Source of the DNA: Methylophaga thalassica MP
Lineage (GTDB): Bacteria; Pseudomonadota; Gammaproteobacteria; Nitrosococcales; Methylophagaceae
Direction: 5' to 3'
DNA length: 64,000 nucleotides
Assembly (NCBI RefSeq): GCF_000214595.1
Contig: NZ_AFIG01000003.1
Span: forward strand, 1-64,000
Shown: one piece after another, positions 19,884 to 43,404 of the stretch
Layout of the letters: each line of letters opens with the position of its first letter
How positions within the stretch are numbered: the stretch's first letter is position 1
Notes under the pieces: generated by a model
What the model was told of the DNA's origin: nothing
Databases searched by the model: none
What the model saw: the letters and a program-made list of their open reading frames with translations, nothing else
Program-made: the position numbers and the translations under genes

Positions 19884-21550
19884 TCAGTCTGACTGTTAGG
19901 AATTTAGCCGTTGTAGAAGATCTCGCTCTGACATTTGAACCTGGTATGACATCGCTAACCGGTGAGACTGGTGCGGGTAAATCAATGCTGGTTGATGCAC
20001 TTAGTCTGGTACTTGGTGACCGCGCAGATTCAAACATGATTCGCCATGGTGCCGAACGTGCTGAAATTGAAGCTGATTTTAATTTAGACAACAACACGAC
20101 CCTGGCTAAATGGTTACAAGAAAATGAGCTAGACGAAGATGAACAATGTCATTTACGCCGTACGATAAGCCGTGACGGCCGCTCTAAGGGGTATATTAAC
20201 GGTCGTGCGGTCCCGCTAGCCTTGTTGAAAGAAGTCAGTGAACGCAGTATTGATATTCATGGTCAACATGCACATCAATCATTAATTCGGCCACAAACAC
20301 AACGAGAAATTTTAGACATTGTCGCAGACAATAAAGCCTTACTGAATAACTTAAAAACAGCCTATCGCGACTGGTCAGCATCTCAGCAAGAACTTGAGCT
20401 ACTGCAAAGCCAGGCTGAAGAGCAAAAGGCAAAACAAGAATTACTGCAGTATCAGGTATCAGAGCTGGAAAGCTTTCAGTTAACACAAACGCATATTCAA
20501 GACCTTCTTCAGCAACAGAGTCAACTTGCCAATGCCTCCCAGCTCATTAGTGTGGCCGAAGCCGGTTTACATCGCATTTTTGATGAAGAACAAGCAGCGG
20601 CCTACGATATTATCAATCACACATTAAGTGAGCTCGAGAAACTACAAGATCTTGAACCACGCTTTGCCAGCGCCGTTGAAACGCTTAACGCCGCCATTAT
20701 CAACCTCGATGAAACAGCAAATGACTTGCGGCATTATCTGGATCATATCGATCTTGATCCGGCTCGTTTGAACGCGATCGAAGATGAATTGTCACAACTT
20801 CACGATATTGCGCGTAAGCATCATGTCGAGGTTGAACAACTCCCCGCACTATATGAAGAATTAAGTACAGAGCTGGAAAGGCTTTCCAATAGTGAAGTCC
20901 ATCTTGCCGAACTGCAGAAAGTCTTATCAAACAAAGAGGCAAATTGCCTTGCATTAAGCCGTGAAATACACGAAAAAAGAGTCAAAACAGCCAAACCACT
21001 AGCTAAACAGATTTCAGCATCAATCAAACAGCTGGCAATTCCTTCCGGCGAAATAGACATCGAAGTCGTTGCTAATAGTGATGAAAAATTCTCAGAACAT
21101 GGTATGGACAGCGTTCGTATCCTAGTTAGAACGAACCCAGGACAACCATCAGGTGAGCTGGCAAAAGTAGCTTCCGGTGGTGAGCTGGCACGGATTAGTC
21201 TGGCAATTCAAGTTGTCACAGCAGGAAAACGCACTGTTCCAACCTTAATTTTTGATGAAGTTGATGTAGGCATAGGTGGAAGCGTTGCGGAAGTCGTTGG
21301 GCAACACCTAAGAAAACTGGCAACTACGCAGCAAGTCATCTGTATTACTCATTTACCTCAAGTCGCTGCGCAAGCGCATCATCAGCTACAAGTGAACAAG
21401 AAACATTTAGATGACAGCACGCACATTGTTGTTGATAAGCTCGACAGACAACAACGAATTGAAGAAATTGCCAGAATGTTAGGTGGCGTGAACCTGACCC
21501 AAAAAACACGCTCTCACGCAGAAGAAATGTTGGATCAGGCTCAACAATAA
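19877..21550 (+). CDS. recN: DNA repair protein RecN
   Basis: SMC-like ATPase for recombinational double-strand break repair. From the ATG at 19877 it has 557 residues (E. coli 553) and begins MLISLTVRNLAVVEDLAL; the upstream in-frame ATG at 19859 adds six unlikely residues. Walker A is GETGAGKS (about 29-36). A long central coiled coil rich in Gln/Glu/Leu (about 150-370) is followed by the ABC signature ASGGELARISLA and Walker B LIFDEVDVGIGG. The start overlaps the nadK stop. An SOS (LexA) box was not recognised. Confidence 0.97.
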   Translation: MLISLTVRNLAVVEDLALTFEPGMTSLTGETGAGKSMLVDALSLVLGDRADSNMIRHGAERAEIEADFNLDNNTTLAKWLQENELDEDEQCHLRRTISRDGRSKGYINGRAVPLALLKEVSERSIDIHGQHAHQSLIRPQTQREILDIVADNKALLNNLKTAYRDWSASQQELELLQSQAEEQKAKQELLQYQVSELESFQLTQTHIQDLLQQQSQLANASQLISVAEAGLHRIFDEEQAAAYDIINHTLSELEKLQDLEPRFASAVETLNAAIINLDETANDLRHYLDHIDLDPARLNAIEDELSQLHDIARKHHVEVEQLPALYEELSTELERLSNSEVHLAELQKVLSNKEANCLALSREIHEKRVKTAKPLAKQISASIKQLAIPSGEIDIEVVANSDEKFSEHGMDSVRILVRTNPGQPSGELAKVASGGELARISLAIQVVTAGKRTVPTLIFDEVDVGIGGSVAEVVGQHLRKLATTQQVICITHLPQVAAQAHHQLQVNKKHLDDSTHIVVDKLDRQQRIEEIARMLGGVNLTQKTRSHAEEMLDQAQQ

Positions 21551-21563
21551 AAATAACCCAAAG

Positions 21564-21980
21564 CTATTGTTCTTTTTGACACAGACGACAAATGCCATAG
21601 ATATACAAGCTATGGTCAGTCATCTCAAACCCTTTTTCTTTAGCAATAGCACGTTGACGTTGTTCAATCACTTCATCAACAAACTCTTCAATGCGATTAC
21701 AGCGAACGCATAAAAGATGGTCATGATGACTGCCATCTTGTAATTCAAATACAGCATGTCCGCCTTCAATGCTGAGTCTTGAAACTAAGCCTGCACCTTC
21801 AAATTGTGTCAGCACACGATAAACCGTTGCTAAACCAATTTCTTCTCCCATATCCAGTAATGCCTTATAGACATCTTCCGCACTCATGTGACGTAATTCA
21901 GAGGTTTCTAGAATCTCCAAAACTTTTAGTCTTGGCAGCGTCACTTTTAATCCAGCTTTTCGTAAATCTTGTCTTTCCAT
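21564..21980 (-). CDS. fur: ferric uptake regulator
   Basis: Fe2+-dependent DNA-binding repressor. With the start at 21980 (MERQDLRKAGLKVTLPR) it has 138 residues, a normal Fur length. The longer frame to 22022 adds a non-conserved N-terminus. It has a winged-helix N-terminal half and a C-terminal metal-binding half with HHDHLLCVRC and CRLCQ, so both cysteine pairs of a structural zinc site appear present. It is divergent from bamE and convergent with recN, the classical recN-fur-bamE (omlA) arrangement of Pseudomonas. Confidence 0.96.
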   Translation of the reverse strand: MERQDLRKAGLKVTLPRLKVLEILETSELRHMSAEDVYKALLDMGEEIGLATVYRVLTQFEGAGLVSRLSIEGGHAVFELQDGSHHDHLLCVRCNRIEEFVDEVIEQRQRAIAKEKGFEMTDHSLYIYGICRLCQKEQ

Positions 21981-22058
21981 TATTATTGTTGCCTCGTAGA
22001 AATGCTGCGAATAGAGTATCATCGCAGATTGGTAATTAACTACAGAAATTAATACTAA

Positions 22059-22598
22059 ATGAAAAGCTCCGTTGTTTACAGCCTTTCCTTGGCAGTTGTT
22101 TTATCGTTGTCAGCTTGTAGCACTGATAAAATCCCCGGTGTTTACCGCATCGACATTCAGCAAGGTAATGATGTTACTCAAGAAATGCTCAATCAACTTG
22201 AACCTGGTATGACCAAAAATCAAGTTGCTTATGTCATGGGAACACCACTACTAATTGACACTTTTCATCCTAATCGTTGGGACTACCTCTACAGCTACCA
22301 ACCTGGCGGTGAAGATCGTGAGCAGCGCAGAATTACACTTCACTTTGATGAGGCAGATAAGCTGATACGTATTGATGGTGATACTCGGACTGTGGCGAAA
22401 GCCGATTTACCTCAAGTAGAACGTCAGGATAAAAATGTTATTGTTCCTCTGACTGAGAAAAAATCAGGACTTTTCTCTAAAATGAAAAGCTTGGTAGGTC
22501 TGGGCGACGATGATGAAGATGTAGAAGTTATCGAAGGTACAAATCCTGCGAAGCCAGAAATTGATCAACAACAGGTTCCCGATACAGATATTCAATAA
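22059..22598 (+). CDS. bamE: outer membrane assembly lipoprotein BamE
   Basis: Small lipoprotein of the BAM beta-barrel assembly complex (SmpA/OmlA family). It has a signal peptide with lipobox LSAC (Cys20), then the conserved core [12 protein letters not shown]...[17 protein letters not shown]...RWDYLY (about residues 25-90). A variable acidic C-terminal extension to 179 residues is longer than E. coli BamE (113) but usual for this group. It is followed by a clear terminator hairpin. Confidence 0.95.
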
Positions 22599-22600
22599 AA

Positions 22601-22623
22601 AAAGGCGCCTTTGGCGCCTTTGT
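22601..22623. terminator. bidirectional intrinsic terminator (bamE / carbonic anhydrase)
   Basis: AAAGGCGCC and GGCGCCTTT form a GC-rich hairpin with a three-base loop, flanked by A and T runs, between the convergent genes bamE and can. It can serve both strands. Confidence 0.85.
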
Positions 22624-23253
22624 TTATACTGGTTTTTCAAACTCATCAGTCGTGGGGTTGTAGCACATTAGCTCACCTTTATCGAGATCGAAATACCACC
22701 CGTGTAATCTGAGCGTACCTGCTTCAACCCGTTCTTTGATGCACTCAAATGTCATCAGGTTTTGCAAAGAAACAAGTACAGCTCGCTGTTCACACAATTT
22801 TAGCTGAACACTCTCATGTTCTTGTTTATGATTCACTTTTACCCAATCTTTCGCATTTTGTGCAATCGATACCCAACGGTGAATAAATTTTGAATCTTCC
22901 ACACCTTCACTTTGCCACAAAGCGCGGATCCCGCCACAATTCCCATGCCCCATCACCACAATGCTTTCGACTTTCAGCGCATTAACGGCAAACTCCAAAG
23001 CCGAACTGGTACCATGATGATTATTGTCTGTTTCACATGGTGGTACTAAGTTTGCAACGTTTCTCACTGTAAAAATATCGCCGGGATCACAGTCAGTCAA
23101 AATAGCCGGATCTACACGTGAATCACAACATGCAATCATAAGTATTTTAGTTGGCTGCCCTGTTTTCATGCTGTCATAGAGCGCTTTATCATCACCAAAA
23201 TACGTTTTCTTGAATCGAGAAAAACCCTCTAATAATTTATACGTAGTAGGCAT
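22624..23253 (-). CDS. can: beta-carbonic anhydrase
   Basis: Interconverts CO2 and bicarbonate in the cytoplasm. The 209-residue protein has zinc ligands in CCDSRVDP (Cys and Asp-Arg dyad, about 42-46) and HGNCGG (His and Cys, about 98-101). Length and motifs fit the E. coli Can type. It is followed on the upstream side by the metallo-hydrolase gene on the same strand (15-bp gap), so the two may be co-transcribed. Bicarbonate supply would suit carboxylating or urea/nitrogen metabolism, but no specific partner is visible. Confidence 0.95.
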   Translation of the reverse strand: MPTTYKLLEGFSRFKKTYFGDDKALYDSMKTGQPTKILMIACCDSRVDPAILTDCDPGDIFTVRNVANLVPPCETDNNHHGTSSALEFAVNALKVESIVVMGHGNCGGIRALWQSEGVEDSKFIHRWVSIAQNAKDWVKVNHKQEHESVQLKLCEQRAVLVSLQNLMTFECIKERVEAGTLRLHGWYFDLDKGELMCYNPTTDEFEKPV

Positions 23254-23268
23254 CTTATTTTTGTTATC

Positions 23269-23901
23269 TCAAAATTGTAAAAATGGGTTGTGGCGTTTTT
23301 CATCAGCTAAGGTGGTGGTTGGTCCGTGGCCTGAATGCACAACTAAGTCATCTGGTAAAGCAAGCAGTTTTCTCAAGCTCTGTTGCATCAATGCTGCATT
23401 GCCCATTGGTAGATCTGTTCTCCCAACACTCCCAGCAAACAAGGTATCACCCACAAAAATATCACTGCTCGTATAGTAACAACCTTGTCCTGGTGTATGC
23501 CCTGGAGTAGATATAAATCTTAACTGTGTTTCACCTAAGTTTATAACATCACCATCATCAACTAAATGGTCTATTCTACCGCATGGACGATTCATATGAG
23601 GGGCGCCAAACCAGTCACCTTGTTGCGGTAAGGTATCAAACAGGATTTTTTCTAGTCTGGGGAGATATGTTTCAGCATCAAAACGATTCTGAATTTGGAC
23701 TAAAGAACCGGCGTGGTCGAGATGCCCATGAGTGAGTAAAATTTTTGTTAGCTTAAACTGCCCACGCTTTTCCTCAAGATACTCGGCAAGCTCATTTGTC
23801 TCACCGGTATCAATGATCGCAGCTTCATTTGTTGCTTCATCAATGATCAAATAGGTATTCACAAAAAAGGCGCCAACGGTGATACATTCGATTTTTAACA
23901 T
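23269..23901 (-). CDS. MBL-fold metallo-hydrolase (YcbL/GloB-like)
   Basis: A 210-residue metallo-beta-lactamase-fold hydrolase resembling the glyoxalase II-like protein YcbL. The metal motif THGHLDHAG (HxHxDH) is near residue 58. Other ligands are in TPGHTPG and the terminal SGHGP segment, so the binuclear site looks complete. The GloB C-terminal glutathione domain is missing, so a thioesterase of unknown substrate is the safe call. It lies between can and the KWYEAN repeat gene on the same strand. Confidence 0.88.
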   Translation of the reverse strand: MLKIECITVGAFFVNTYLIIDEATNEAAIIDTGETNELAEYLEEKRGQFKLTKILLTHGHLDHAGSLVQIQNRFDAETYLPRLEKILFDTLPQQGDWFGAPHMNRPCGRIDHLVDDGDVINLGETQLRFISTPGHTPGQGCYYTSSDIFVGDTLFAGSVGRTDLPMGNAALMQQSLRKLLALPDDLVVHSGHGPTTTLADEKRHNPFLQF

Positions 23902-23949
23902 CTAAAATCCATCACCGTTGACGCCTTACGTTAGAGTTGTCTCTACGTA

Positions 23950-25188
23950 TTATTTGTCCCACTTTTTGCTTGATTCACGAGCAGTAATCATATTCTGCTT
24001 GAACCAATCACTTTTCACTTTCTGAGTTCTCGCCAAGTCGAGGTTAGCCTCGTACCATTTTTTCTTAATATCCGCATGTGGATCCGGATGCATATTCGCT
24101 TCATACCACTTGTTATGGCTGATCCGCGCTTTCTCCAGATTAGCCTCATACCATTTCTTGTGTGTTTCAGTCGTTAAGTCATCACTGATTTCATACCAAT
24201 GTTTTTCAGTTGGTGTGTTATCAAGATTTGCTTCGTACCATTTGATACGTTTCTCGCGAGCTTGTTTTAGGTTTGCTTCACGGAATGCTAACTTCCACTC
24301 AGTATCGTTGGCTTCTTTAAAGTCATACCAATGAGCCTGTGTGGGTTGATTATCATTAGCTTCATACCATTTACTGCGCTCAGCACGGACAGCAGCCACT
24401 GCTGATTTCAGATTAGCTTCATACCATTTATTTTTAGTATGAATGTGGGCGGCGATATTCGCTTCATACCAGGGAGTATCAGTTACTTTTGCTGGTCGCT
24501 GATTTGCTTCATACCACTTCTGGTTTTCTCTTGCGATAGCTGCATTGTCTGCAAACCATTTTGATTTAATTTGACGAGTACGAATTAAACTCAGATTTGA
24601 CTCATACCAGCGTTGTTTAATTTCAGCATGTGGATCAGGATGAATATTCGCCTCATACCACTTACTATGATTAACACGAGCTGTTTGTAGATTGGCTTCA
24701 TACCATTTCTTTTTAGTGTCTGAATATTTTTCATCACTAAACTCATACCAATGTTTTTCAGTTGGTGTGTTATCGAGATTGGCTTCGTACCACTTGATAC
24801 GTTTTTGACGAGCCTGATCCAAGTTTACGCGCATCCAAGCTTTTTTTACATCACTGTACATTTCTTCACTGAAATGTTGCCAACGTTTTTCAACCTCAGA
24901 TTGGCTTTTGTTTGCTTCGTACCATTTACGTGTGGCACGTACAGATTGAACCGCCTGTTGGAGATTAGCGGCATACCATTTATTTTTTGTTTCAATATGC
25001 TCAACCAGATTCGCTTTATACCAAGGAATCTCAACATCCTTTGCTGGACGTTTATTGGCGTTATACCAAGGTTTTGCAATATTGATAGAAGGTTTCAGGT
25101 TAGCCTCATACCATTTGCTTCTGGACTCTCTCGCTGTCTTAAGATTAGCTTCGTACCACTTTGCTTTGATTTCAAACGTGCTAGTCAT
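23950..25188 (-). CDS. KWYEAN-repeat protein of unknown function
   Basis: I do not recognise this family. The 412-residue protein is almost wholly made of short units with a conserved [KR]-W-Y-E-A-N-L core. Tryptophans stand at 11, 26, 41, 56, 71, 89, 103, 118, 133, 147, 162, 177, 194, 211, 225, 240, 255, 274, 287, 298, 317, 331, 346, 361, 378, 395 and 410, so most units are 14-15 residues and some 17-19. A higher-order duplication is clear: residues 41-224 match 225-408 with a constant offset of 184 residues (552 bp at DNA level). No signal peptide, membrane segment or cysteine is present, and the protein is very rich in Lys, Trp and Tyr. AGAGG precedes the ATG. Units could be short amphipathic helices in a solenoid or right-handed coiled coil, with proline-containing turns (HPDPHA, DNTPTEKH). 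No modifying enzyme or transporter is adjacent. Confidence 0.9.
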   Translation of the reverse strand: MTSTFEIKAKWYEANLKTARESRSKWYEANLKPSINIAKPWYNANKRPAKDVEIPWYKANLVEHIETKNKWYAANLQQAVQSVRATRKWYEANKSQSEVEKRWQHFSEEMYSDVKKAWMRVNLDQARQKRIKWYEANLDNTPTEKHWYEFSDEKYSDTKKKWYEANLQTARVNHSKWYEANIHPDPHAEIKQRWYESNLSLIRTRQIKSKWFADNAAIARENQKWYEANQRPAKVTDTPWYEANIAAHIHTKNKWYEANLKSAVAAVRAERSKWYEANDNQPTQAHWYDFKEANDTEWKLAFREANLKQAREKRIKWYEANLDNTPTEKHWYEISDDLTTETHKKWYEANLEKARISHNKWYEANMHPDPHADIKKKWYEANLDLARTQKVKSDWFKQNMITARESSKKWDK

Positions 25189-25285
25189 ATTTCTTACCTC
25201 TGCTGGGCATTTAAGTAATTTGATAGTACATGACTTTTACTCAAGTTCACAACAAAATCAGTATGATATTTGATTAAGATCAGTT

Positions 25286-25693
25286 TTATTCATAACAATG
25301 TTTTTCAGCTTTTATGCGTTGCAAAGCTGAAATCTGTTGCTCTACTTGTAACTGTCGTCTATCTTCTTTCTCTTCTACAAGCGCAGAATACCCTAAATAC
25401 CCCAATCCCAACCAGCCTTGTACAATCGGTATGGTATCAATCATCACCAAAGCGGTCGCCGCTTTATTGGCATCATCCTTATAAAAAGTCGGTTTATACG
25501 TATATCGGTATGGATGCAACTGATTGATGGCTTTATCTACCTGATAACAACTCATGTCCTGCATTTTCTGATCGGCCGTTACAACTGGCGGCTCGAAATA
25601 AATCGGTTCTGAGGGTACAGGAGGTAGTGTCAAGGCATTAGTTTTCGATGAAAATATTAAGACAAGACATAAAAAAATACTCAACCTTTGCAT
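25286..25693 (-). CDS. small exported protein of unknown function
   Basis: Unrecognised 135-residue protein. Residues 1-20 (MQRLSIFLCLVLIFSSKTNA) are a plausible Sec signal peptide with cleavage after TNA. A proline-rich stretch follows (LPPVPSEP), then a CYQVDKAINQLHPYRY segment. A hydrophobic, glycine-containing stretch (VQGWLGLGYLGYSAL, about 90-105) may be membrane-associated, before a charged, probably helical tail with a second cysteine (KHCYE). The two cysteines could pair in the periplasm. It is upstream of the KWYEAN-repeat gene on the same strand, 97 bp apart. No function can be given. Confidence 0.6.
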   Translation of the reverse strand: MQRLSIFLCLVLIFSSKTNALTLPPVPSEPIYFEPPVVTADQKMQDMSCYQVDKAINQLHPYRYTYKPTFYKDDANKAATALVMIDTIPIVQGWLGLGYLGYSALVEEKEDRRQLQVEQQISALQRIKAEKHCYE

Positions 25694-25763
25694 GTACCTA
25701 CTCCGTAAAAATCTAGTTCATGTTCGGGTTATCGTCATCGATGACAAAGTCTTCAATAACAAT

Positions 25764-28154
25764 TTATTCTGCAGATGCGTCTTTGTCATTACGGTTATGA
25801 TCCCCCCACTTCTGGATTTGAGCCATCACCTGAGCATTGAATGTTTTTTCAGGAAATCCAGATTCTTCATCATATTCCCCTGCGTCTATTCCTGATAATA
25901 AGGCTAATGCTTGATTGACATGGCTTATACCATAAATATGAAACTTGCCATCCTCAACTGCTTGGATAACATCATCACGCAGCATTAAATGCTGCACATT
26001 TGTAGCCGGAATAATAACGCCCTGTTCTCCTGTTAATTCAGTCAGACGACAAATATCATAGAAACCTTCAATTTTTTCGTTCACACCACCAATGGCTTGC
26101 ACTTGCCCCATCTGATTCATGGAGCCGGTGATAGCAATAGACTGCTTCATAGGAATATTGGCTATAGAGGATAACAAAGCACAGAGCTCTGCCACAGTAG
26201 CACTGTCACCATCTACTTCACCATAATTTTGTTCAAACACAATACTCGCTGACATGGACAATGGATTATCAGAAGCATAGGTCCGTCCGAGGTAACCACT
26301 CAGAATCAATACACCTTTAGAGTGAATATCTCCGCCTAAATCGACTTCTCGTTCAATATCAATGATATTGTCATCACCATAACGTGCTGAAACAGTCACT
26401 CGAGAAGGTTGGCCAAAGCTGAACCCACCGATCCCCAACACAGATAATGCGTTTATCTGCCCAATTACTGCTCCGGATGTTGAGATATCGATAATATTTC
26501 GTTCTATTTGCTGATAAATCTGGCTCCGTAAGCGATCCAGCCTTTGCTCTCTTAACTTGATGGAACTTTGGACATTATCTCTGCTAACGAGTTGGCTCTT
26601 TTCCTGCTTCGCCATAAAAGAAGCTTCCCGTAATAAATCAGCCATACTCCCCATGTGTAAAGATATTTTCTGGCTATCCTCAATAGTTCTGGCACTATGC
26701 TCTATCACCCTGGCAACAGCATGTTTATCAAAATCAATTAATTTGTACTTTTCAATTGTGCTTGCCATCATTTGGGCAAATAAGACGTCATTCTCAATAC
26801 TGCGTGGCATTTCATCTTCAAAATCGGCCACGACTTTAAACAAGCCAGCAAATTCCGGGTCCATATCGTATAAGAGGTAATACAGTTCTCTATCCCCCAG
26901 TAAAACGACTTTCAGTTCTAAAGGGATAGGCTCTGGATCCAATGACACTGTCGCCACAAGACTATAAATTTGCTCTAAGGCATCAAATCTGACCTCACGC
27001 GATTTTAATGCTCGTTTCAGCCCTTCCCAGCCATAAGGCTGCATAAGGAGTTGTTCTGCATCTATGATCAAAAAACCACCATTGGCCTTGTGAAGGGCGC
27101 CAGCCTTAATCAGAGTAAAGTCGGTTACCAGTGCTCCCATCATTGCCATGTTTTCAATACATCCAAGCAAACTTTGATGGTTAGGCAAATTTTCATAAAC
27201 AATAGGGGCACCATGATTCTGGCTATTATCAACGACTAAGTTGATTTGGTAGCGTTTATGGATATTGATGTCTGTGGTGCCTTCTTCTGCTGATTGTTCA
27301 TCTTTCAAAAACGCATCCAGATTACTGCAGATGTCTTTTAGCATGTCATCAAAATAATGCTGTAATTTGCTTGAGTTGGGGTAAGCGTGCTTCAGTTTAT
27401 TGACTTGCTTACTGATAACTTCAAGAGCGACCTCATCATTCAGCGCCTGAAGCTGTTTAGCATTGTTTCTTTCCCACTCTCTCAGCTCTAATAGAGTGTG
27501 TTGCAATTCTTCGTGCAAGTCTGCAATCGCATTCTCTGTCTCTTCCTGTTGAGCTGCAGGTAACTGCTCAAACTCTTCTGAGGTCATGGCCTCGCCATTA
27601 TGTTGAGCGGCAAAGGCATAATGACCATCTTGTAACCTCAGTAAAACAACACCTTTACGATCAGCCTCTTTTTGTAGCACACCAAACAATCTAACTCGGT
27701 GCTTTCGAGTTGCCTCATCGAGGCTTCTTAATCGCCCCCGGTAATATTCATCATCAAACGCTTGCGGCAGCTCATCTTTCAAATCATCAATCACATCTTC
27801 AATATCCTGACGTAATTGTTTGCCTTGTCCTGCTGGTAAACTCACTGCATAAGGTCTTTGTGAATCACTAAAATTATTAAGATAAGCCCAATCTTTCGCG
27901 GTTGGAAGATGTTCAACATGCTGTTCCAGATAGCGCCGAGTTAACGTATATTTCCCTACTCCTGCCGGCCCCATAACAAACAAATTATAACCATCAGCAT
28001 CAATGTGACTGCCAAACTCAATAGCGTTTAATGCGCGCTGCTGACCAATGACTTCATTTGTCGCCTTGAGGTCTGCAGTTGAAGAAAAAGTCCATTGCTC
28101 TGGCGTACAATGATGATATAAATCACTGACTTGTAATTTTGTGCTCTCAGGCAT
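25764..28154 (-). CDS. Lon-like AAA+ serine protease (LonB/AsrA type)
   Basis: A 796-residue ATP-dependent protease of the AAA_32/Lon-like family (Pseudomonas AsrA relatives). An N-terminal segment has a P-loop-like GPAGVGKYTL (about residue 62). The middle contains a long charged helical insertion (about 180-260) and a second ATPase part (KANGGFLIIDAEQLL). The C-terminal Lon S16 domain has the catalytic Ser in DGDSATVAEL and Lys in GGVNEKIEGFYD. The usual Ser/Thr after the Walker lysine is Tyr, a departure from the canonical P-loop. AsrA-type proteins are linked to heat-shock and aminoglycoside responses in Pseudomonas. It is divergent from the PilZ gene. Confidence 0.9.
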   Translation of the reverse strand: MPESTKLQVSDLYHHCTPEQWTFSSTADLKATNEVIGQQRALNAIEFGSHIDADGYNLFVMGPAGVGKYTLTRRYLEQHVEHLPTAKDWAYLNNFSDSQRPYAVSLPAGQGKQLRQDIEDVIDDLKDELPQAFDDEYYRGRLRSLDEATRKHRVRLFGVLQKEADRKGVVLLRLQDGHYAFAAQHNGEAMTSEEFEQLPAAQQEETENAIADLHEELQHTLLELREWERNNAKQLQALNDEVALEVISKQVNKLKHAYPNSSKLQHYFDDMLKDICSNLDAFLKDEQSAEEGTTDINIHKRYQINLVVDNSQNHGAPIVYENLPNHQSLLGCIENMAMMGALVTDFTLIKAGALHKANGGFLIIDAEQLLMQPYGWEGLKRALKSREVRFDALEQIYSLVATVSLDPEPIPLELKVVLLGDRELYYLLYDMDPEFAGLFKVVADFEDEMPRSIENDVLFAQMMASTIEKYKLIDFDKHAVARVIEHSARTIEDSQKISLHMGSMADLLREASFMAKQEKSQLVSRDNVQSSIKLREQRLDRLRSQIYQQIERNIIDISTSGAVIGQINALSVLGIGGFSFGQPSRVTVSARYGDDNIIDIEREVDLGGDIHSKGVLILSGYLGRTYASDNPLSMSASIVFEQNYGEVDGDSATVAELCALLSSIANIPMKQSIAITGSMNQMGQVQAIGGVNEKIEGFYDICRLTELTGEQGVIIPATNVQHLMLRDDVIQAVEDGKFHIYGISHVNQALALLSGIDAGEYDEESGFPEKTFNAQVMAQIQKWGDHNRNDKDASAE

Positions 28155-28231
28155 AGTTTTCTCAATTTGAATAAGTTACTTTAAGCTTAGGTCGACAGAA
28201 TAATACAGACAATATAGGAAGGGAGAATCAG

Positions 28232-28540
28232 ATGTCACCAAATGATTATGATGAAAAACGTGCATATCATCGAATGAAAGTGGATACGCCAATTACATTT
28301 TCCCTTAATGGCCAAGCACAAGTAACACATCAAGCCATCAGTAAAAATCTTAGTGCGAGCGGTTTACTTATCCAGTCAGAGTTTGCACCTACTCAAAATG
28401 ATAAAATAGAGATTGTAATGGATACAGGTAATGACCGATTTTCGCCATTTATTATTCAGGGGCGTGTGCTGAGAGTAGAAGCAGATATTGAGGCCGCAGA
28501 GCAATATTTGATATCAATTTCAATAGAACAGAGTCAATAA
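28232..28540 (+). CDS. PilZ-domain c-di-GMP binding protein
   Basis: A 102-residue protein consisting of a single PilZ domain. The two c-di-GMP motifs are visible: RxxxR as RAYHRMKV near residue 9, and NLSASGLLI (D/N-x-S-x-x-G) near residue 48. This predicts a soluble c-di-GMP receptor that modulates a partner protein. The start has GGAGAA upstream. It stands alone between the Lon-like protease and coq7 and ends 2 bp from the convergent coq7 end. Confidence 0.9.
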   Translation: MSPNDYDEKRAYHRMKVDTPITFSLNGQAQVTHQAISKNLSASGLLIQSEFAPTQNDKIEIVMDTGNDRFSPFIIQGRVLRVEADIEAAEQYLISISIEQSQ

Positions 28541-28542
28541 AC

Positions 28543-29193
28543 TCATATCCAATAGCTTGTTTTGGTCATCACTTTTGAGGTAATTGACATGAGAATTTTC
28601 ACTGGAATCGGCAATTCGGCACCGCCGGCATCCAATGCCATGCTTCTGTGATGGCCTTCATCCTCTCGCATTTGTTCCAAAACAGCGCGACTTTTAATAT
28701 CACTTGGGCTGAGTTGTTGTAGATGTTCATCAAGATGCTTAACCACTTGTTTTTCAGTTTCAGCAACAAAACCCAAGCTCCATTTATCGCCAATCTTTCC
28801 TGCAACAGCTCCAATAGCGAAAGAGCCTGCGTACCATATCGGGTTTAGAACACTACGATGTGAAGAAAGAGTGATTAAGCGTTGTTCACACCAAACCAGA
28901 TGGTCATTCTCTTCTAATGCAGCCTGTTCCATTGCCTGGCGTATTTCTGGTAACTTAGCTGTTAAAGCTTGGCCTTGATATAGAGCTTGTGCAGATACTT
29001 CACCAGAATGATTTACTCTCATCAATCCCGCTGAATGTTTTTTTTCTGAAGACGTTAGCGAGGTAGTTTCATTGAGATGGCTGCCAGGCACTTCACGCTG
29101 AGTGGTCTCTGGTTGACCGAATACTGTTGTGATGGCTTTATCTACTTCGATAATGACTCGGTCAACAATACTCAACTGTCTCAAATTCAACAT
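28543..29193 (-). CDS. coq7: 3-demethoxyubiquinol 3-hydroxylase (Coq7/UbiF-type)
   Basis: Di-iron hydroxylase of ubiquinone biosynthesis, the oxygen-dependent C6 hydroxylation that E. coli does with the flavoenzyme UbiF. The 216-residue protein has the carboxylate/histidine ligands in NHSGEVSAQ, LEENDHLVW, AETEKQVV and REDEGHHRS. All are at Coq7 positions, so the di-iron site is complete. The ATG at 29193 has AGGTAGAG upstream. Length is typical of proteobacterial Coq7. Confidence 0.95.
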   Translation of the reverse strand: MLNLRQLSIVDRVIIEVDKAITTVFGQPETTQREVPGSHLNETTSLTSSEKKHSAGLMRVNHSGEVSAQALYQGQALTAKLPEIRQAMEQAALEENDHLVWCEQRLITLSSHRSVLNPIWYAGSFAIGAVAGKIGDKWSLGFVAETEKQVVKHLDEHLQQLSPSDIKSRAVLEQMREDEGHHRSMALDAGGAELPIPVKILMSITSKVMTKTSYWI

Positions 29194-41937: not shown

Positions 41938-43404
41938 TTAATGAACGTCTATCATTTGTACTGAGCCATCAGGCAGCACTTCTGCCATTTGTCCTCGCGG
42001 CTCATCCATAAACTGTACCGCAATCAGGGTAACAATGGCCGTCCCACAGATAACAAAGAAGAAGGTTTGTGCAGAAACTAAAGATAAGATAGTTAAGAAA
42101 GTCACAGCACCGACATTACCATAGGCACCGGCCATACCTGCCACCTGCCCAGTTAAACGACGTTGCACCAGTGGTACAACTGCAAACACCGCGCCCTCAC
42201 CTGCTTGCACAAAGAATGAGCAAGCCATCGTCGCCAACACGGCCAACACAATGAACCATTCAGGTGTGATCATGCCCATCACAAAATACCCTACTGCCAG
42301 TCCACTGATGCAAATCGTCAGTGTTCTCTTTCTACCTAAACGATCGCTGAATAAACCACCAATAGGTCTCGAGACCAGATTCATAAAAGCAAATCCTGAT
42401 GCCAGTAACCCGGCTTGTACAGCACTGATATCAAACGTTTCACTGAAAAATAACGGCAACATCGATACCACCGCTAATTCAGATCCAAATGTAGCTAAGT
42501 AAGCTAAATCCAACACGGCGACTTGTTTAAATTTGTAACGGTGAATTTCAGGGGTTTCTTTTACGAAGACCTCTTTGTTTACTTGATAAATGTGGTAAAC
42601 CTGATAGAAAAATAAAACAACCAGACCGACATAAATCGCATAGCTGACATTCATTGACAGCAAGCTGACACCACTGGGTGATAACTTCCATGCTAATAAA
42701 GCTAGTGCTGCATACATAGGAATATTCATTACGATATAAAGAAAGAAATCTCCCTTACTGGTCACTTCCATTGCACCTGATTTTTTTGGTTTAAAGTAAG
42801 TAGAGCCTTGTGGCGTATCAGAAACACTATTGTAGTAAATGAAGGCATACACAAGTGCAATAGCACCAGTCAGACCAATGGCATAACGCCAGCTATCCTC
42901 ACCCCCAAACATCAAGGCAATCGTAGGTAATGACATCGCTGCTGCTGCTGAACCAAAATTACCCCAGCCACCATAAATACCCTCAGCCAAACCGACTTGC
43001 TTTGCTGGAAACCACTCGGAAATCATACGAATGCCGATAACAAAGCCAGCACCAACAAAACCCAACATAAAGCGAGCAAGTGCTAATTGCTCAAAACTAT
43101 CGGCCACTGCGAAGAAAAAACAGATAATGCTGGAAATACCGAGCAGCAGTGAATACATGATCTTAGGACCATATTTATCCACCAGCATACCGATAACAAT
43201 TCGTGCAGGAATGGTTAACGCCACATTCAGTATCAGTAACGTTTTTATTTGCTGGCTGTCGAGACCTAAGGTATCGCGAATAGCCATTAATAAAGGGGCG
43301 TGATTAAACCACACCACAAAACTGATAAAAAAGGCTATCCAGGTTAAATGAAGGGTACGGATATTATCTTTAAAAGATAATAAATTGAGTTTGTTATTAG
43401 ACAT
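41938..43404 (-). CDS. MFS nitrate/nitrite transporter (NarK/NasA family)
   Basis: Inner-membrane nitrate uptake protein. The 488-residue protein has about 12 membrane segments and the nitrate signature-like glycine-rich stretches [13 protein letters not shown]...[12 protein letters not shown] and [16 protein letters not shown], typical of the NNP family. A central loop (about 190-230) is longer than in E. coli NarK, as in Pseudomonas and cyanobacterial assimilatory types. It heads a two-gene unit with the phosphatase/kinase. A sigma-54 promoter-like element and an NtrC-like dyad precede it, so nitrogen-limited expression is expected. Confidence 0.95.

Follow-up and report, generated by a model that had tools for sequence, protein, structure and literature searches.

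A tryptophan-rich repeat protein conserved in the family of Methylophaga and its likeness to a 15-residue phage repeat

What might a protein do that is assembled from serial copies of a short KWYEAN-containing unit? The question is raised by an ORF in a 64,000 nt stretch of the Methylophaga thalassica MP genome (contig NZ_AFIG01000003.1, positions 1 to 64,000), hereafter the window. The ORF spans 23950..25188 on the minus strand and encodes a KWYEAN-repeat protein of 412 aa with a pI of 9.4. KWYEAN appeared in none of the papers searched, and a literature search covering titles and the starts of abstracts found nothing on the repeat protein.

Composition and anatomy of the repeat protein

The protein contains 27 Trp (6.6%), 23 Tyr, 52 Lys and no Cys, which agrees with the ORF, the Trp count, the lack of Cys and the richness in Trp, Tyr and Lys described in an earlier sequence-only reading of this DNA. 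That reading had also put most Trp residues inside [K/R]WYEAN and their intervals at 14-19 residues. By count, KWYEAN holds 13 of the 27 and RWYEAN none, and the Trp-to-Trp spacing in the window protein runs from 11 to 19 residues, 15 being the commonest. No signal-peptide-like start was apparent on direct reading of the N-terminus.

Residues 41-224 (24517..25068, minus strand) and 225-408 (23965..24516, minus strand) align without gaps at a constant offset of 184 residues, with 106/184 identical residues (58%) and 346/552 identical nucleotides. The duplication, previously called exact, is therefore exact in register and offset and inexact in sequence. Each half carries 12 Trp and the orthologues have the same layout, in line with the proposed tandem duplication of a 12-unit array. 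Tandem Repeats Finder listed no array over the repeat gene; its sole array in the window is an 18 bp unit in 2.1 copies at 42952-42989. An antisense ORF of 155 aa (24751-25218, plus strand) overlaps the repeat gene, and similar antisense ORFs occur in L018; such frames are probably a by-product of repeat coding.

As the array, the uneven Trp spacing and the two-half layout are all present again in orthologues, the repeat architecture is not due to chance. The uneven spacing recurs position by position across Methylophaga, with small shifts. Complete relatives are 202-427 aa long and carry one or two super-repeats, so the unit number does differ between relatives, a point that the earlier reading had raised; L044 from genome G423, at 202 aa, has a single super-repeat. 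In the draft genome G020 (~130 contigs), the repeat gene (L020) is broken into two overlapping frames, by a draft error or a real disruption. A tree was built from the halves of 25 proteins. The first halves of L001, L002 and L004-L010 formed one group and are 73-95% identical to the first half of the window protein, while the two halves within each protein of this set are 55-62% identical, L010 standing apart at 69%. Contrary to the simple picture, the second half of L010 branches next to the first halves. The similarity between the halves of a protein is 85-92% in L011, L012 and L015 and ~80% in L022 and L040. These differences between lineages suggest that some of them have re-copied or homogenised their super-repeats.

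Physicochemical properties were measured for 22 of the 44 extracted repeat proteins. All 22 are basic and hydrophilic (pI 9.05-9.79, net charge +8 to +30, GRAVY -1.11 to -1.43) and lack Cys. AlphaFold2 gave a pLDDT of 53.7 and a pTM of 0.16 for the 412-aa protein (15 alignment rows), and 61.1 and 0.21 for the 202-aa L044 (29 rows). Both models show, at low confidence, helices of 4-61 residues (mostly 19-41) that are separated by loops and whose packing cannot be trusted. Of four helices, two have a significant helical period of conservation (3.84 with a permutation value of 0.016; 3.52 with 0.044); no such period emerged in the remaining two or overall. The repeat protein is thus predicted, with low confidence, to be mostly helical. 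The earlier suggestion to model one super-repeat, taken up with L044, yielded helices and no dependable arrangement of them, and the solenoid or regular right-handed coiled coil proposed at the time finds no backing in either pTM value or in a periodicity confined to two helices.

Distribution, constraint and upstream region

A profile search with the repeat protein found relatives in 53 of the 57 genomes of its own family, in three of four genera, some of these matches being pieces at contig ends (for example in G018). We take this family to be the Methylophagaceae in GTDB; NCBI files Methylophaga under Piscirickettsiaceae. The family genomes without the repeat gene are G003 (85% complete), G424 (84%), G023 (1.1 Mb, 100%) and G024 (97%). 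Farther afield, a class sample of 369 genomes gave four matches, all members of the same family, and a phylum sample of 398 genomes gave two, the source genome itself and G438, the latter rejected as a relative because its ORF is pentapeptide-like. Plasmids gave no match at E 1e-5, and the viral and phage collections one weak match apiece. Identity to the window protein is 95% in M. sulfidovorans and 77% in M. thiooxydans; PMC6548844 describes an expression study of the latter species.

The repeat gene is constrained roughly like its enzyme neighbours. Against L031, its dN/dS is 0.011 at a dS of 1.83, which is near saturation, compared with 0.024 for the carbonic anhydrase, 0.020 for the Lon-like protease, 0.042 for the MBL-fold hydrolase and 0.061 for p135, a small protein encoded upstream. 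Against L032, it is 0.038 at a dS of 0.63, compared with 0.015, 0.025, 0.107 and 0.059, respectively. The repeat gene thus ranks lowest of the five against L031 and third against L032; dS is saturated against L034, L037 and L038, hence the ratios rest on L031 and L032. A frame evolving neutrally, with dN/dS near 1, which the earlier reading had named as the outcome that would undo it, is not what we found. Codon adaptation of the repeat gene is 0.695, rank 4 among 52 mechanically called ORFs of the window and inside the range of the reference, 0.61-0.78 over 28 ORFs of the S10-operon stretch. High expression is predicted from this codon usage.

Alignment of upstream regions pointed to a putative promoter of the repeat gene itself (25189..25283, minus strand), comprising TTGT, ~18 bp and TACTATC, with an estimated 5′UTR of 27 nt. 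In 15 aligned regions, a TTGT element lies ~18 bp ahead of TAnTATC. The -10-like motif, picked after the alignment had been seen, occurs in all 35 upstream regions, which represent 31 distinct genomes, four being counted twice. By direct reading, all of the 35 except L033 have TTG at the -35 position. Leader lengths are estimated at 23-36 nt in 34 regions and at 54 nt in L033. A promoter-like element is thus conserved upstream of the gene, judging by these alignments. A generic promoter scan of 22500-25900 gave 10 sites against 8.7 expected, the repeat-gene promoter not among them, and Rfam gave no match at gathering score over 21000-29000.

The same alignment revealed an FNR-like box, CTGATCTTAATCAA, at 25270-25283 (minus strand), with 9/10 matches and its centre at about -61.5. 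Boxes resembling TTGAT-N4-ATCAA with 8-10 of 10 matches are centred at -60.5 or -61.5, counted from the estimated start, in 9 of the 31 genomes, the window's included. Two of the nine boxes, those of L036 (shuffle fraction 0.097) and L037 (0.063), reach 8 matches, and the other seven have fractions of at most 0.02. We take a centre in the -61 region to be the class-I FNR position. The nine box-bearing species are those whose first halves group together in the half-tree. According to PMC11526790, Methylophaga nitratireducenticrescens possesses an FNR-type regulator. Low oxygen probably boosts the repeat gene in this one Methylophaga clade.

Family searches and likeness to phage repeats

The sequence-only reading had assigned the protein to no named family. 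This holds for Pfam, where neither the window protein nor L044 matched any family at E up to 5; it needs qualifying in that L030 gave matches below the curated cut-offs (at best 21.9 bits where 34.2 are required) and in that the unit comes near a phage 15-residue repeat. The sole NCBIfam match below E 0.001 was HetL (E 2.4e-4), and membership of the pentapeptide-repeat proteins was rejected, as the score reached 20.6 of the 260-bit cut-off and the ANLxx units are not consecutive. PHROGs yielded nothing convincing (the window protein matched at E 0.0028 at best, and none of its stretches passed). No PADLOC family matched the repeat protein at E up to 0.1, which leaves it outside the anti-phage defence families of that collection. 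Queries with the protein and with its alignment matched solved structures at chance level (best E 0.51 and 0.1), and a phage relative used as query gave none at E up to 1.

Two phage-type proteins carry the most similar units. An ORF on the viral contig L060 has two nuclease matches, HNH in Pfam at E 4.8e-11 and endonuclease VII in PHROGs at 7.5e-33. Its 15-residue units, among them a literal KWYEAN, follow a Cys-rich part at the N-terminus and precede the HNH domain. The other is gene20 of Chlorobiaceae phage CV-1-33 (QOE32027.1; L062 2992-3603), an array of KWxAENPEKxREyQR-type units with no recognised nuclease domain, which is 26.9% identical to the window protein over 42% of the query (E 5e-3). 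In the same phage region, near L062 1890, lies an ORF of MALA/MAMA repeats. Profile comparison gave probabilities of 90.1 for L060 and 95.5 for L062. To control for the inflation of such scores by repeats, the order of positions within the 15-residue unit was permuted, identically in all units, 100 times per protein. The real hhalign scores were 45.9 for L060 and 54.1 for L062; the permuted units scored 23.5 and 39.5 at best, and in neither case did any of the 100 permutations reach the real score. This result indicates that a unit pattern is common to both sides, beyond period and composition. By this control, the unit with its W/Y, its N at +4 and its 15-residue period agrees position by position with those of L060 and L062.

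Counting its own record, the phage repeat occurs in 27 phage records, of which 9 are annotated as HNH endonuclease or endonuclease VII; some of the nine are two records of one phage. In a reverse search of a class sample of 274 genomes, the phage protein matched the window gene at 32.5 bits and a K/E-rich coiled-coil ORF of an unrelated genome at 27.1 bits, and missed the family member G025 in the same sample. Three matches lay outside the family; L082 and L085 were rejected as relatives, having K/E-rich coiled-coil-like repeats, and L084 showed no clear repeat upon re-alignment. The single super-repeat of L044 matched no phage at E up to 10. The likeness to the phage repeat may reflect descent or convergence on a helical 15-mer.

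Neighbouring genes and candidate functions

An enzyme neighbour had been denied in the sequence-only reading, but three adjoin on the same strand, in an order that is largely conserved. A beta-carbonic anhydrase (22624..23253, minus strand) comes next downstream at 27 of 30 loci (L001-L030), the exceptions being L017, L018 and L027, where it was not found; a glyoxalase-II-like MBL-fold hydrolase (23269..23901, minus strand) is present in 23 of the 30; and a LonB-type AAA, Lon-like protease (25764..28154, minus strand) is a neighbour in part of the relatives. The constant upstream partner is p135 (25286..25693, minus strand), a small protein whose N-terminus looks like a signal peptide on direct reading. 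It was found in 51 of the 57 family genomes, all of them carriers of the repeat gene. No p135 was found in the other two of the 53 carriers, G011 (68% complete) and G423, nor in the four genomes that lack the repeat gene. In all 51 genomes having both genes, p135 lies directly upstream on the same strand, the match edges being 83-133 bp apart in 50 genomes and 291 bp apart in one. Weak relatives of p135 occur outside the family in 7 genomes of the class sample of 274, and reading the flanking stretches revealed no repeat gene of this kind; those in L072 and L073, from other Gammaproteobacteria, adjoin genes that are presumably htpG and hsp15. G023 and G024 retain the carbonic anhydrase yet have neither p135 nor the repeat gene. 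In the small genome G023, a bamE-like ORF (L067 2338-2740) contains a run of SDK repeats.

Our best guess, a tentative one, is that this basic helical protein binds nucleic acid in a multivalent manner. The protein would be abundant, basic and cytoplasmic, with helical W/Y/N/K units joined by flexible linkers; each unit of 15-17 residues (K-W-Y-E-A-N-L-x-x-A-R) would be a weak binding element, and 12-27 units in series would let it coat or bridge DNA or RNA, much as a nucleoid-associated or RNA-condensing protein does. Its expression would start from its own conserved promoter, probably with a low-oxygen boost in one Methylophaga clade. Location, abundance, oxygen control and binding are all what we infer. 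Nucleic acid appears the most likely ligand because of the charge, the hydrophilicity and the company that the unit keeps in phage proteins; the high codon adaptation and low dN/dS also speak, still tentatively, for this reading. Against it, the phage repeat adjoins the nuclease domain rather than lying inside it, the conserved Glu of KWYEAN would in our judgement be unusual in a nucleic-acid coat, and nucleic-acid binding does not account for the gene's linkage with p135 and the carbonic anhydrase. It is improbable, though worth stating, that a phage nuclease-type repeat module was taken over as a stand-alone chromosomal protein and became an abundant, oxygen-responsive organiser of the nucleoid or of condensates in this methylotroph family; if true, this would be a new kind of bacterial architectural protein made of W/Y/N helix units.

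The neighbourhood suggests other functions. The repeats might act as a multivalent scaffold that clusters copies of the beta-carbonic anhydrase, perhaps with the MBL-fold hydrolase, and so raises local bicarbonate/CO2 exchange. The same-strand carbonic anhydrase in 27 of the 30 loci and an arrangement of helices and linkers in which aromatic and basic residues recur would suit such a scaffold, but the enzyme persists in G023 and G024 without the repeat protein and was not found at three loci, the repeat gene appears to have a separate promoter, and the closest constant partner is p135 rather than an enzyme; we consider a scaffold unlikely. The tie to p135 (51 of 53 genomes with the repeat gene, none of the four without, always directly upstream) might instead reflect an envelope or stress function in which the repeat protein lines the inner membrane, whose interface suits W/Y/K-rich helices. 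G423 has the repeat protein of L044 with no p135 found, the seven outside relatives of p135 had no repeat gene in the stretches read, and the 22 measured proteins are strongly hydrophilic by GRAVY, so that this role, too, is doubtful.

Serial units, mostly of 15-17 residues, and codon usage typical of a highly expressed gene would also fit the coat of a granule or storage body, for which phasins and apolipoproteins are the models. Pfam matched no such family, however, and no storage-polymer gene was among the six neighbourhood proteins run against Pfam, which makes a granule coat quite improbable. That the array is selfish or neutral and has no function is hardly credible: the repeat number is variable and the halves are 85-92% alike in three proteins, but dN/dS values of 0.011 and 0.038, well below 1, refute it, and relatives in 53 of the 57 family genomes and a conserved promoter-like element point the same way. 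The tentatively preferred binding of nucleic acid concerns a conserved, Pfam-less and probably highly expressed protein in a family of marine methylotrophs with cultured isolates, and its role can therefore be tested by deletion and tagging.

Several known systems share features with the repeat protein and differ from it in others. CsoS2 and EPYC1 are multivalent scaffolds that hold enzyme clients, and they resemble it in having serial binding elements on linkers and a carbonic anhydrase gene nearby; unlike them, the Methylophaga protein has no Pfam match at all and no Rubisco or shell gene among the named neighbours, and the likeness rests on gene neighbourhood. Pentapeptide-repeat proteins such as HetL share the recurring ANL motif, whereas the Methylophaga protein is predicted to form helix, not beta structure. 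The HNH and endonuclease-VII-type phage proteins, here the L060 ORF and PHROGs 14214 and 17714, share K/R-W/Y-x-x-x-N followed by a basic stretch with a period of 15, and in the L060 ORF KWYEAN itself. The Methylophaga protein differs from them in lacking the HNH or endonuclease VII domain and the Cys-rich part, in a spacing of mostly 14-19 residues with linkers, in its two-fold super-repeat and in its family-wide chromosomal locus. This likeness gives reason to ask what the 15-residue repeats do in the phage HNH and endonuclease-VII-type proteins as well. Phage CV-1-33 gene20 is likewise a stand-alone unit array without a recognised nuclease domain, and it is distinguished from the Methylophaga array by a near-perfect 15-residue period with no Pro/Thr linkers between helices.
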